From Gammaproteobacteria bacterium (lineage in GTDB: Bacteria > Pseudomonadota > Gammaproteobacteria > S012-40): a DNA stretch of 64,000 bases. The stretch is taken from the NCBI GenBank assembly GCA_029881255.1, contig JAOUMY010000001.1, forward strand, positions 620,001 to 684,000, written 5' to 3'. Under the pieces are notes generated by a model. That model searched no databases. It saw only the letters and a list, made by a program, of their open reading frames with translations, and had not been told where the DNA came from. Made by a program: the position numbers and the translations under genes. Each line of letters opens with the position of its first letter. Position 1 is the stretch's first letter. Positions 58,660 to 62,805 of this stretch are shown piece after piece.

Positions 58660-59634
58660 ATGCAAAGGATGCCAGGAATGAGAGCTATATTTACTCTAAT
58701 CGTCATATTTGTCGTGAACAGTGCATTCGCCGTAGAGGAGCATCGGATAGCCGGACCAACGCCGAATCTTGCAAATCCCAACGTTGTACAGGTGAGTGAT
58801 CGGGTTTTTGCTATGGTCGGCGATATGGACGTGCCTAACAAAATCAATCAGGGTTATATCTGCAACTCAGTTTTTGTTATTGGGGAAGCTGGCGTGATGG
58901 TCTTCGATTCCGGTGGCAGTAAGCAAATTGGCGAGATGATTATCCGCGAAATTCGCAAACGCAGTGATAAACCGATTACCCACGTCTTCAATACTCACCA
59001 TCACGCCGATCATTGGATGGGTAACCAGGCCTTTATTGAGAGCAGCACAAAAACAAAGATTTTCGGACATGCTGTCATGATCGATACTGCACAGCAAATC
59101 GGCGATCAGTGGACAAAAATTCTTCTCGATATGACTAAGGGTGAAACCGCGGGAACCAGGCCTGTCTATCCTTCAGAACGGTTGCAGGGCAATGAAACAC
59201 TGCAACTGCATGGCTTGACGCTCAAGCTTTATCATCCAGCTCATGCTCATACAAAAGGTGATATTGCGGTATTGATAGAGGAAGAAAAAGTCTTGCTTGC
59301 AGGCGATATATTGTTCTATTTGCGCACGCCTGGATTTCAGGACGCCAGTCCAATGGGTAATCTAAAGGCATTGCAGGATCTGAAGCAGATGTCGTTTACC
59401 AAGGTGGTTCCCGGTCATGGGCCGGTGACTGACAAAAATGGGATCGACTATATGATTGATTATGTGCATCTGTTACACGATCAGGTAAAGCACTATTTCG
59501 ATGAAGGTCTGGCGGATTTTGAAATGAAAAATAAGATCGAGGTTGGCAAATATCGTCAAATGTCAGGCTTTGATGATCGCTTTGGCATTAATGTGAATCG
59601 TATGTTTCTGGAGGTGGAGGAATCCAGTTTTTAG
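58660..59634 (+). CDS. Exported metallo-beta-lactamase-fold hydrolase (SoxH-like)
   Basis: A 324-aa periplasmic MBL-fold protein with a signal peptide (to about residue 24, NSAFAVEEH). Zinc ligands are visible as THHHADHW (H-x-H-x-D-H), HAHTKGD, LLAGDILF and PGHGPV. The closest family I recognise is the SoxH-like group found in quinoprotein and sulfur-oxidation loci, whose substrate is unknown. Despite the fold, nothing indicates beta-lactamase function. The first ATG (58660) is used; ATGs at 58669 and 58678 are possible, and no ribosome-binding site clearly decides. Confidence 0.8.
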   Translation: MQRMPGMRAIFTLIVIFVVNSAFAVEEHRIAGPTPNLANPNVVQVSDRVFAMVGDMDVPNKINQGYICNSVFVIGEAGVMVFDSGGSKQIGEMIIREIRKRSDKPITHVFNTHHHADHWMGNQAFIESSTKTKIFGHAVMIDTAQQIGDQWTKILLDMTKGETAGTRPVYPSERLQGNETLQLHGLTLKLYHPAHAHTKGDIAVLIEEEKVLLAGDILFYLRTPGFQDASPMGNLKALQDLKQMSFTKVVPGHGPVTDKNGIDYMIDYVHLLHDQVKHYFDEGLADFEMKNKIEVGKYRQMSGFDDRFGINVNRMFLEVEESSF

Positions 59635-59806: not shown

Positions 59807-60799
59807 CTAAATGTCTTTCGCACAGCGAAATCCGACGTCCTCGCCCAGTACTTCAGGCTCGGCATACTGACGGGTTGCGCCGCGGAAGAAGTAGCTTATA
59901 GCGTAGTGGCCCACACCTCCGCCGCCACCGCGGATAACCTTGTGTATGGTGCCGAACTTTTCGTTTTGATTATTATTCCCGGGATAGGCTTGATACCAAT
60001 CGTCTACCCACTCCCAGACATTTCCTCCCAGGTCGTAGGCACCGTAATAAGATTTGTTCTGTGGATAGGCACCTATCGGGGCAATGCCTTCGTCAAACTC
60101 AGAATCGTCCCCTGTTTCAGTTTTCTCCGTATCCCATTGATTGCCCCAGGGAAATTCATTGCCATTAGGCCCGCGCGCAGCCTTTTCCCATTCCGCTTCT
60201 GTAGGCAGTCGTTGACCACGCCACTTGCAATACGCGTCGGCGTCATGCCAGCTCACCCCTGTAGCGGGATAGACGTCTAGCTCGGCTTGTTTCTTTTTCA
60301 TTTCCTCGATTATGGCGGCACGACTCATTTTGGTGGTGTCCATATCGAGTTTGAAATGTTCCGCAGCGATTTTACGAAACAAACCCTCTTCCATAGTGGC
60401 TGCCTCTTCCATAGTCAGCGCGTAGCCGTTTTGAAACCAATACATAGGTTTTTTGTGCTCAGTAGCACTTACGAATTCCTTGTACTGCTTGAGGGATACC
60501 TCGTACTGATCGATATAAAAATCTTTTAAATGCATCGTGTGTTGCGGGTGTTCATCCAGAAATAAAGGATCGGGAAATCCGTAGCGTTGTTGCAGGCCTT
60601 CTTTGTCTTCCTTGTCACTCCCGCGTATGAACTCACCAGCTGGGACTTTTACCATGGCAATATTTGCATGGCTTCCCTGAACAACCTGTTTCGCTTTTTC
60701 CGATTTAGCGGTAAGCGGTGCCTGTTCCTCATTCGTCGTGTTTTTGCTGCAGGCGCTAATCATTAGGCACAGAAATAGAAAAGGAAAAAGTGTTTTCAT
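59807..60799 (-). CDS. FGE-domain (SUMF1-like) lipoprotein without catalytic cysteines
   Basis: A 330-aa protein with a lipoprotein signal (LMISACSK, Cys17) and a formylglycine-generating-enzyme (SUMF1/EgtB) fold: MVKVPAGEFIRGSDK, GVSWHDADAYCKWRGQRLPTEAEWEKAARG, LGGNVWEWVDDW and the ending VGFRCAKDI. In true FGEs two active-site cysteines follow the GGS motif. Here that region reads IRGGGGGVGHYAISYFFRGA with no cysteine, so sulfatase-activating chemistry is not expected. It follows the cytochrome-FGE fusion gene by 9 bp in one operon and was perhaps derived from it by duplication. Confidence 0.85.
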   Translation of the reverse strand: MKTLFPFLFLCLMISACSKNTTNEEQAPLTAKSEKAKQVVQGSHANIAMVKVPAGEFIRGSDKEDKEGLQQRYGFPDPLFLDEHPQHTMHLKDFYIDQYEVSLKQYKEFVSATEHKKPMYWFQNGYALTMEEAATMEEGLFRKIAAEHFKLDMDTTKMSRAAIIEEMKKKQAELDVYPATGVSWHDADAYCKWRGQRLPTEAEWEKAARGPNGNEFPWGNQWDTEKTETGDDSEFDEGIAPIGAYPQNKSYYGAYDLGGNVWEWVDDWYQAYPGNNNQNEKFGTIHKVIRGGGGGVGHYAISYFFRGATRQYAEPEVLGEDVGFRCAKDI

Positions 60800-60808
60800 T
60801 TTTTAATC

Positions 60809-61816
60809 TCAATCACTGTCTTTGGCGCAACGAAAGCCAAAGGTGTCGTTTTTTGTACGGCGCGCGAAAAATGCGCGATTATATACAGGTGCCGAAATAC
60901 CGCATTTATAAAATGAGCAATCAAACCACGAACCACCCTTAAGTGTTTTGTATCGTTTACCGTAGTTCTCCGAGGCAACTTTGCTATTGGGGTAGGCCTG
61001 ATACCATGAGTCGGTCCATTCCCACACATTGCCCGTCATGTCGTAAACCCCGAATGGACTCCTGCCGCCTTCGAATGCGCCAACCGGCGTGGTGTCGCCA
61101 AGTTTGCGACCGAGTTCCAGCCAACGTAAGGGCATATTGGCGTTTTTTACTTCGAAGGTATTGCCCCAGGGATAGGTGCGTCCGTCGTGTCCTCGCGCCG
61201 CTTTTTCCCACTCGACATCGCTAGGCAATCGTTTGCCTGCCCACTCACAATATTCCTTTGCATCGTACCAATCGACGTAAGTTACCGGGTGATCTGCCTT
61301 GCCTTCCGGGTAATTGCGATTGACAAAATGTTTGGGTGATTTACGACGGGTTTCCTCAATAAAACGTTTGTATTGCAGATTCGTTACTTCATATTTATCG
61401 ATCAGAAAAGACCGTGTTTTCGCCGTGTGCTGAGGGCCTTCGTCAAACAGACGCTCATTTGTGCCGCGTATAAACGTCCCTGCCGGAACAGATGCCATCT
61501 CGTTAGGTTTGTCGCCTAAGCGAGACTCTGCGGAAAACATAGGGAATTGCATACCTAACACCGCTTTCCCCTCGTCCTTCTGTTCGACAGGATTCTGCGG
61601 AGCACTGGCGATGGTCTTTAGTTTGTGTTTGATTTCCGTACGCGTATGACAATTCAGGCAACTATTATCGTTATTACGAAGTATGGCTTTGATGTCGATG
61701 CCGTCGCTATGGCACTTAACACAGGCCTGGACGTGAAAATGGTCGGCTGGCTTTTCCATTGCCAAAACGGCAACGGAAAAGGCTAGCGAAATAAAAAAAA
61801 ATATTACTGATGTCAT
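60809..61816 (-). CDS. Diheme cytochrome c-FGE fusion protein
   Basis: A 335-aa exported protein from the ATG at 61816 (an in-frame TTG at 61864 is weaker). After a signal segment (about 1-20), two heme c motifs CVKCH (32-36) and CLNCH (53-57) are followed by a spacer and an FGE/SUMF1 domain (MASVPAGTFIRGTNE, TYVDWYDAKEYCEWAGKRLPSDVEWEKAARG, MTGNVWEWTDSW, GFRCAKDSD). It keeps a cysteine pair, C300-x4-C305, in the GGSWFDCSFYKCG segment, at nearly the position of the copper-binding cysteines of true FGEs. Upstream is a PfkB kinase gene and downstream the cysteine-less FGE lipoprotein. The substrate is unknown. Confidence 0.85.
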   Translation of the reverse strand: MTSVIFFFISLAFSVAVLAMEKPADHFHVQACVKCHSDGIDIKAILRNNDNSCLNCHTRTEIKHKLKTIASAPQNPVEQKDEGKAVLGMQFPMFSAESRLGDKPNEMASVPAGTFIRGTNERLFDEGPQHTAKTRSFLIDKYEVTNLQYKRFIEETRRKSPKHFVNRNYPEGKADHPVTYVDWYDAKEYCEWAGKRLPSDVEWEKAARGHDGRTYPWGNTFEVKNANMPLRWLELGRKLGDTTPVGAFEGGRSPFGVYDMTGNVWEWTDSWYQAYPNSKVASENYGKRYKTLKGGSWFDCSFYKCGISAPVYNRAFFARRTKNDTFGFRCAKDSD

Positions 61817-61828
61817 ATGGATTGTCGT

Positions 61829-61852
61829 CCGGTTGTCACACTGGACAACCGG
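61829..61852. other. Perfect stem-loop between PfkB kinase and cytochrome-FGE genes
   Basis: CCGGTTGTC (61829-61837) and GACAACCGG (61844-61852) form a perfect 9-bp stem with a 6-base loop, in the 44-bp gap upstream of the cytochrome-FGE start. There is no following T run on the minus strand, so it is not a standard terminator. It could limit read-through from the kinase gene or affect mRNA stability or translation. Confidence 0.6.
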
Positions 61853-61860
61853 CTTGTCGT

Positions 61861-62805
61861 TCAAGAAAAGCTTTCCAGACTGTGACCGAAGTTTTCCTCG
61901 TAGCGTTGTCCGAAAGACTGGCGAGTAAAACTATGGTTTTGTGGTCCGTGGGTTTCAATTTTTATTGCACCGCATAAAGATGCTATCCGACCCGTGGTTT
62001 CCCAATCCAGATCATGCATGAGCCCAAATAAAAGACCAGCGCGATAGGCGTCACCACAGCCGGTTGGGTCGTTGAGTTCCTTAGGTGTGGCACTAGGGAT
62101 CTCATGACGATGAGTCTTGGTGTATATGTGAGAGCCTTTACTGCCAAGCGTTACAATAAACGCCTCAGTTTGTTCGGCAACTTCGTGAGGAGACAAGCCC
62201 GTCTTGTTCTGCAACATCTCGGCTTCGTAATCATTAACCGTCACCCAGGTTGCCAATTCGATAAAGCGTTTCAATTCATCACCGTCGAACATTGGCATGC
62301 CTTGACCCGGATCAAATATAAACGGGATACCGGCTTCATAGAATTCCTGCGCGTGTTGTAACATACCGTCACGGCCATCGGGAGAAATAATGCCGATGCT
62401 AATTCCTTTCGCTGACTTTACCGAGTTCTCATGGGAGAAACCCATGGCACCAGGATGGAAGGCGGTGATCTGGTTATCGTCCATATCGGTTGTGATAAAG
62501 GCCTGCCCGGTATAGCTTTCCTTGATGGTCTTGATGTGTTTGCGACTGATACCGCACTCATCCATCCAGTTCGCATAGGGGCCGAAGTCGCTGCCAACCG
62601 TGGCCATAGGCAGGGGATCGCCGCCGAGCAGCTTCAGGTTGTAGGCGATGTTGCCGGCGCAGCCACCGAATTCTCTGCGCATCTCAGGCACCAGAAAGGA
62701 TACGTTTAGCATATGGGTCTTGTCGGGCAGTATGTGATTCTTGAACCGATCATGGAAGACCATGACGGTGTCGTAGGCATAGGAACCGCAAATCAAGGCA
62801 GTCAT
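61861..62805 (-). CDS. PfkB-family kinase (adenosine/ribokinase-like)
   Basis: A 314-aa carbohydrate kinase of the PfkB family. The N-terminal GGCAGNIAYNLKLLGGDPLPMATVGSDFG and the C-terminal catalytic motif DPTGCGDAYRAGLLFGL (with the catalytic Asp) are clear. Sequence character is closest to bacterial adenosine kinases, but the family also phosphorylates ribose or other sugars, so the substrate is not certain. It is the first gene of the minus-strand kinase-(cyt c-FGE)-FGE group. Confidence 0.85.
   Translation of the reverse strand: MTALICGSYAYDTVMVFHDRFKNHILPDKTHMLNVSFLVPEMRREFGGCAGNIAYNLKLLGGDPLPMATVGSDFGPYANWMDECGISRKHIKTIKESYTGQAFITTDMDDNQITAFHPGAMGFSHENSVKSAKGISIGIISPDGRDGMLQHAQEFYEAGIPFIFDPGQGMPMFDGDELKRFIELATWVTVNDYEAEMLQNKTGLSPHEVAEQTEAFIVTLGSKGSHIYTKTHRHEIPSATPKELNDPTGCGDAYRAGLLFGLMHDLDWETTGRIASLCGAIKIETHGPQNHSFTRQSFGQRYEENFGHSLESFS

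Follow-up and report, generated by a model that had tools for sequence, protein, structure and literature searches.

Besides aerobic FGE itself (SUMF1; PF03781), FGE-like domains make up the C-terminal part of the sulfoxide synthases EgtB, OvoA and SenA, and others are non-enzymatic scaffolds or binders, as in PorK/GldK and the Mtd receptor protein; we know of no FGE activity for the exported FGE-like domains of the PvdO and PorK/GldK type. Human FGE pairs with its Cys-less paralogue pFGE (SUMF2), and in the human FGE structures much of the peptide groove, which contacts the sulfatase peptide, is presumably contributed by the segment running from VTN to HPV. According to the part of PMC4505483 available, FGE needs an external reductant in vitro, and the available part of PMC12123546 describes its physiological reductant as still unknown.

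The gene described here encodes a diheme cytochrome c fused to an FGE-like domain. Neither such a fusion, nor a re-registered Cys pair, nor a tandem Cys-less partner was found in the open-access literature searched, and no mention of formylglycine or sulfatase was found in the available parts of PMC5371394, PMC12016527, PMC7029218 and PMC8788666.

The fusion gene and its product

In the window (the whole 64,000-nucleotide stretch that was analysed), the fusion gene is an intact ORF on the reverse strand that starts with ATG (Table 1); an alternative in-frame TTG lies upstream, at 61864. A sequence-only reading of this DNA had seen a diheme cytochrome c and an FGE-like domain in one chain, and this holds: a signal peptide, recognized by eye, is followed by CVKCH and CLNCH, 21 residues apart, then by a linker and an FGE/SUMF1-like domain covered as a whole by PF03781 (profile positions 3–255 of 255, E = 1.6e-60). 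Residues 294–306, GGSWFDCSFYKCG, hold C300 and C305; C190 and C330 presumably correspond, by their position, to the structural disulfide of FGE.

The two-heme segment of the window protein gives Pfam matches to small multiheme families, below the curated cut-offs, and weak matches to Cytochrom_c3_2 (E <= 0.1) occur in 50 of the 57 fusions of alignment A1 (see below). The small multiheme cytochromes (c3/c7, doubled CXXCH) resemble the fusion in their closely spaced CxxCH motifs; unlike them, the fusion has only two hemes, and these are joined to an FGE-like domain. Additional histidines near the heme motifs, candidates for axial ligands, number at least two in 46 of the 57 relatives and fewer in the other 11. 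The perfect inverted repeat just upstream of the ATG may be a chance occurrence, since it is the only terminator-like match where 3.1 are expected in shuffled sequence.

Table 1. Features of the fusion gene and the gene behind it (positions within the window)
Feature	Position	Strand	Basis
Diheme cytochrome c - FGE-like fusion protein, 335 aa	60809..61816	-	ORF; PF03781 1.6e-60; 73 distinct full-length kin
Probable signal peptide, fusion residues 1-19 (...SVAVLA/M)	61760..61816	-	Translation read by eye
Heme c motif 1, CVKCH, residues 32-36	61709..61723	-	Translation; 57/57 in alignment A1
Heme c motif 2, CLNCH, residues 53-57	61646..61660	-	Translation; 57/57 in alignment A1
FGE/SUMF1-like domain, residues 105-332	60821..61504	-	PF03781; VIA fold matches
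D299-C300-x4-C305 loop (DCSFYKC)	60902..60922	-	D, C, Y, C invariant 57/57
9-bp perfect inverted repeat, CCGGTTGTC-6-GACAACCGG	61829..61852	.	Just upstream of fusion ATG, between in-frame TTG and ATG
Partner: second FGE-like protein, 330 aa, no hemes, no Cys pair	59807..60799	-	PF03781 1.5e-55; 9 bp behind fusion
Lipobox-like ISAC of partner (Cys 17)	60749..60760	-	Read by eye

A conserved family with linked heme motifs and cysteines

The loci surveyed were the best 80 of 151 related contig stretches, together with more from 56 related genomes, and a protein was counted as a fusion when it had at least two CxxCH motifs near the N-terminus, a C-x4-C pair after GGS and an FGE-like domain. The combination had been unfamiliar to the sequence-only reading; the search for it returned at least 73 distinct full-length proteins from Pseudomonadota and Nitrospirota, and the fusion is a conserved family, not the oddity of one genome. 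Its named sources are metagenome-assembled genomes labelled Gammaproteobacteria (Chromatiales, Ectothiorhodospiraceae, Thiotrichaceae and others), Gallionella/Nitrosomonadales, and Nitrospirota including Candidatus Manganitrophus; one of them comes from a biocathode. Within 369 genomes drawn from the class, 28 have matches at E <= 1e-60, with at most three copies per genome.

Retention of the cysteines in homologues, on which the earlier proposal had staked itself beforehand, is complete: both heme motifs and the Cys pair are present in 73/73 distinct full-length fusions of the loci surveyed, while the pair occurs in 0/114 heme-less FGE-like relatives from the same loci, a comparison that does not amount to 73 independent tests because in the tree a branch sets the fusion group apart. 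When Cys-pair proteins were selected without the heme criterion, two of 75 lacked hemes, both of them cut off at contig edges. Since the fusions are one clade, the linkage may go back to a single origin followed by strong selection rather than to repeated gains.

Alignment A1 comprises 57 of the 73 fusions (the window protein and 56 of the 72 found), its members having been picked for the two CxxCH motifs and not for the Cys pair; alignment A2 holds 53 sequences, at least 51 of which come from 89 candidates. Both CxxCH motifs are invariant in all 57 fusions of A1, down to about 40% identity, and in the heme segment invariance is limited to the CxxCH letters themselves. In the loop, G294, G295, S296, W297, D299, C300, Y303, C305, S308, N313, R314, F317 and N323 are invariant (57/57), and D-C-x2-Y-x-C-G-x-S-A-P is almost frozen; the Ser of GGS is thus invariant, and the Trp of GNVWEW is kept in 52/57. 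The conservation of hemes and Cys loop exceeds chance.

The Cys pair and the fold compared with FGE

For comparison, ten plasmid loci were fetched, nine of which carry FGEs with GGS-x2-C-x4-C, three of these directly behind sulfatase genes. The fusion domain shares with aerobic FGE the whole fold, GGS, GNVWEW, GFRCA and a C-x4-C in the loop after GGS, and it matches human FGE with a VIA Z of about 24. Unlike in FGE, the pair is shifted by a single residue on either side, some 40 residues of the presumed groove segment are missing, two heme c motifs stand in front, a Cys-less FGE-like gene is the partner and the genome is devoid of sulfatase. The shift by one residue had been spotted in the sequence-only reading, and it turned out to be general: all 57 fusions have GGS-x3-C, whereas 9/9 true FGEs have GGS-x2-C, and the distance from the second Cys to GFR is 21 in the fusions and 20 in the FGEs. 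With one extra residue both before the first Cys and after the second, the offset is symmetric. Measured in 54 of the 57 fusions, the VTN-to-HPV segment has a median length of 29 residues, as against 68–81 in true FGEs (the pattern could measure four of the nine), and hhalign of fusion versus FGE leaves about 40 gap columns there.

How the two loops are to be superposed depends on the aligner, three of them giving three registers: phmmer pairs both cysteines with those of Streptomyces coelicolor FGE by way of one-residue gaps on each side, hhalign places C305, not C300, on the first FGE Cys, and MAFFT anchors on the Tyr; under ungapped alignment from GGS, an invariant Asp occupies the position of the first Cys. 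The AlphaFold model of the fusion has a mean pLDDT of 81.4, with blocks 1–90 at or under 70 and residues 301–304 below 50, the Cys loop being the least confident part of the modelled FGE domain. PDB structure matches were used as fold evidence only; EgtB, ToxD, CalU17 and FGE match about equally (VIA Z 22–26), EgtB 4x8b being on top (Z 25.8, rmsd 2.5, 230 residues), and the best PDB match by sequence is pFGE (1y4j, 9.4e-33). Unlike EgtB, OvoA and SenA, the fusion has no N-terminal iron-binding (DinB-type) domain that Pfam would find, and its NCBIfam scores for EgtB and SenA are 100 and 94 bits against cut-offs of 360 and 420; it differs from PvdO and PorK/GldK, which have no hemes, and scores 59 against a cut-off of 500 and 78 against 350, respectively.

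In a quick tree built with the Cys loop left out, the fusions group with Cys-less relatives; one-clade tests reject neither fusion plus true FGE nor fusion plus partner, and a direct comparison gives p-AU values of 0.49 for fusion plus FGE, 0.34 for fusion plus partner, 0.12 for partner plus FGE and 0.68 for the free tree. The earlier wording that the domain "keeps" C-x4-C is hence right as to the presence of C300 and C305, and goes too far as to their inheritance from FGE (p-AU 0.49 versus 0.34).

An N. B. on substrates had also been made from the window, where no sulfatase gene was seen; this extends to the whole source genome (99.45% complete), in which PF00884 has 0 matches, the same profile finding matches in 10 of 14 known genomes used as control. 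In the genomes of the relatives set, PF00884 proteins, their kind not being assigned, are present in 43/56. A degenerate DNA pattern for CxPxR matches 242/240 times in the genome and 211/202 times in the reversed control, and is uninformative because the control gives similar counts; a C-x4-C-G pattern is equally empty (322/391 versus 392/501). A true FGE had thus been envisaged with good reason as regards fold and C-x4-C, and with less as regards spacing (unlike 9/9 FGEs), the shorter groove segment and the lack of PF00884 matches; by its fold the domain is FGE-like, but probably it is not a sulfatase-activating FGE, as far as sequence can tell. Electron transfer from the hemes to a copper site would be a plausible idea in such a chain.

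The partner gene and the neighbourhood

Directly behind the fusion gene, and in the same orientation, 59 of 65 relatives have a second FGE-like gene that lacks the Cys pair; the 65 are those of the 73 distinct fusions for which at least 900 bases of downstream sequence are available. Of the six loci counted as having no adjacent partner, one, L064, contains it as part of an over-long ORF, two from Nitrospirota have it 2.5–4 kb upstream and three show none. The partner in the window is probably a lipoprotein because of the lipobox-like ISAC at its N-terminus, and such a pattern is present in 26 of 53 partner-type proteins; its AlphaFold model has a mean pLDDT of 88.2. It resembles pFGE, another FGE-like protein that accompanies a first one and lacks the Cys pair; pFGE is eukaryotic and, unlike the fusion, has no hemes; the pairing of the bacterial proteins is putative.

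Beyond the second FGE-like gene, clustering of the 65 loci revealed no shared operon member. Housekeeping neighbours are specific to lineages (TrhP at 10 loci, TilS at eight, UbiD at six and UbiA at five; the names rest on one representative identified for each): in ten Gammaproteobacterial loci (the L017–L030 group) the fusion gene overlaps or abuts trhP, and in the Nitrospirota loci L063, L065, L067, L073, L074 and L078 it has ubiD close by in the same orientation, and in five loci the fusion gene is preceded by ubiA. A "quinone link" as a general reading was rejected, the UbiA and UbiD neighbours being lineage-specific only. In the window, a PfkB-type kinase gene precedes the fusion/partner pair and a gene of the metallo-beta-lactamase fold (58660-59634, + strand) follows it on the opposite strand. 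The product of the latter comes close to the quinoprotein-relay zinc hydrolase families but stays below their cut-offs (186 of 280 and 174.5 of 300 bits).

The hosts and an oxidase cluster

Gene content was counted in 63 genomes chosen by hand, 29 with the fusion (of 36; G009, G010, G045, G180, G181, G296 and G327 were left out) and 34 without (of 41; G017, G020, G030, G042, G043, G050 and G051 were left out), the latter nearly all from other families, so that counts and p values ignore kinship. RuBisCO is encoded in 29/29 fusion genomes and in 13/34 of the others (p = 4.6e-8, kinship ignored); by this marker, the hosts of the fusion are autotrophs. A Cyc2-like motif is found in 17/29 versus 5/34 genomes, the query being a 33-aa motif that also catches other cytochrome-porins. 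Dissimilatory DsrA over the cut-off shows no enrichment (7/29 with the fusion, 10/34 without), and a link to sulfur oxidation was dropped on these numbers. The counts support a role in lithoautotrophs without fixing the pathway.

An FGE-like membrane protein (G000:C1:448154-449209 in the source genome) is encoded among COX1 and FixO genes in conserved order, and the 12 stretches fetched around matches to this oxidase cluster contain the FGE-like gene in 12/12 and a COX1 gene in 11/12 cases. Found at full length in 28/29 fusion genomes and 3/34 others (p = 2e-13), this protein is present in 13/30 fusion genomes of a second set chosen by locus, namely in 9/10 of Gammaproteobacteria or Chromatiales type, 4/11 Gallionellaceae/Nitrosomonadales and 0/9 Nitrospirota; by coordinates, at least three genomes belong to both sets. 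A general link to the oxidase was not upheld in the second set.

Further FGE-like and cytochrome loci were observed. The locus L152 (G000:C1:445000-462000) is a cbb3-like cluster (COX1, FixO and unnamed membrane proteins) with its own membrane-anchored FGE-like protein; in the source genome a two-heme cytochrome c and other genes are nearby, and its COX1 protein is 78–93% identical in 11/12 other genomes. At L141:5513-6481 (G000:C2:280512-281480), there is a further partner-type FGE-like gene without heme fusion; a few genes away, small cytochrome ORFs stand one after another, each with one or two CxxCH motifs. At L140 (G000:C5:321000-327000), genes for a NapC/NirT-type tetraheme protein (PF03264), a one-heme protein and a 422-aa protein stand in a row, the last having an N-terminal CxxCH and resembling a cytochrome-porin. 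In the Nitrospirota genomes G378–G386 the FGE-like paralogues are greatly expanded, with 7–11 matches per genome at E <= 1e-30.

Possible functions

The reading preferred here, which stands an even chance of being correct, is that of a periplasmic heme-linked thiol/metal redox protein that, together with its FGE-like partner, takes part in the electron transfer of lithoautotrophs. The fusion would be a secreted diheme c-type cytochrome, the C-terminal FGE/SUMF1 fold of which does not activate sulfatases, and would share a two-gene unit with another exported FGE-like protein, in many cases a lipoprotein; by analogy to the pairing of human FGE and pFGE, the two FGE-like domains would most likely form a periplasmic or outer-membrane complex. 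The two hemes would exchange electrons with the C300/C305 pair and with other carriers of a lithoautotrophic chain, the cysteines either forming a redox-active disulfide or binding a metal, for instance Cu(I). This reading draws on the joint presence of hemes and Cys pair (73/73 against 0/114), on a heme domain conserved only in CxxCH beside an almost frozen loop, on the adjacent partner in 59/65 loci, on the lack of PF00884 matches in the source genome, on the RuBisCO and Cyc2-like counts and on named relatives from Gallionella, Candidatus Manganitrophus and a biocathode. Points against it are the single ancestral event that could explain the joint conservation, the lack of shared neighbours other than the partner, the uncertain axial ligands of the hemes, the loci counted without an adjacent partner and the breadth of the Cyc2 query.

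Structural disulfides are common in exported proteins, and a somewhat unlikely alternative is that C300–C305 is one of them, stapling the loop of a C-type-lectin-like domain that binds a partner or ligand while the hemes act as tethered carriers. PorK/GldK and the Mtd receptor protein are among the VIA fold matches, the segment bearing the hemes is variable and poorly modelled, as a tether would be, and the presence of as many as three copies in one genome hints at different binding partners; however, the additional invariance of D299, Y303, S308, N313, R314 and N323 goes beyond what a staple needs, and the pair is absent from all 114 heme-less relatives, whose loops would need stapling too. 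Less probable again, and unlikely in our view, is a heme-fed copper oxidase of the FGE type, in which C300 and C305 would bind Cu(I) and activate O2, with the hemes replacing thiols as electron source and the substrate cysteine residing in a different periplasmic protein, which might be the partner. It would accord with the fold match to Cu-bound FGE (VIA Z 22–24), with the phmmer pairing of both cysteines, with the symmetric offset, which allows the two cysteines to remain together at the loop tip, with the retained GGS Ser and GNVWEW Trp and with a clade of fusions and true FGEs that is not rejected, and FGE itself requires a reductant from outside that has yet to be named (PMC4505483 and PMC12123546, available parts). 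Against it stand the Cys spacing unlike that of any of the nine FGEs, the roughly 40 residues missing from the presumed groove segment, a source genome without sulfatase, the hhalign register with C305 on the first FGE Cys and the invariant Asp at that position when the alignment is ungapped from GGS.

That the fusion serves the cbb3-like oxidase, whose cluster carries its own FGE-like membrane protein, as an accessory or assembly factor is highly improbable. The first set of genomes and the conserved order with COX1 and FixO speak for it, and, judged by resemblance, the cluster looks like a region described for Tenderia and Mariprofundus in the available part of PMC5371394; but with 13/30 genomes in the second set and none of the nine Nitrospirota, the fusion does not require the cluster, so the link may be shared ancestry.

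In the boldest reading, which we consider quite unlikely, the family would be periplasmic copper-thiolate oxidases of a new class, in which Cu(I) sits at the re-registered C-x4-C and receives its electrons from the two fused hemes. Their substrate would be a cysteine outside the sulfatases, possibly in the partner, and their hosts iron-, manganese- or electrode-oxidising autotrophs.

Significance of the family

The distribution over two phyla, RuBisCO in 29/29 hosts, the occurrence in lineages of iron and manganese oxidisers and the lack of a description in the literature searched make the family a candidate part of poorly known lithotrophic chains. An oxidase merits testing even at a modest chance because the physiological reductant of FGE is unknown and an external one is needed. 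The fusion is a natural and testable case either of one-electron supply to an FGE fold or of that fold being reused as a redox scaffold; were the oxidase reading true, a natural fusion would demonstrate a way of supplying electrons to an enzyme of the FGE type.
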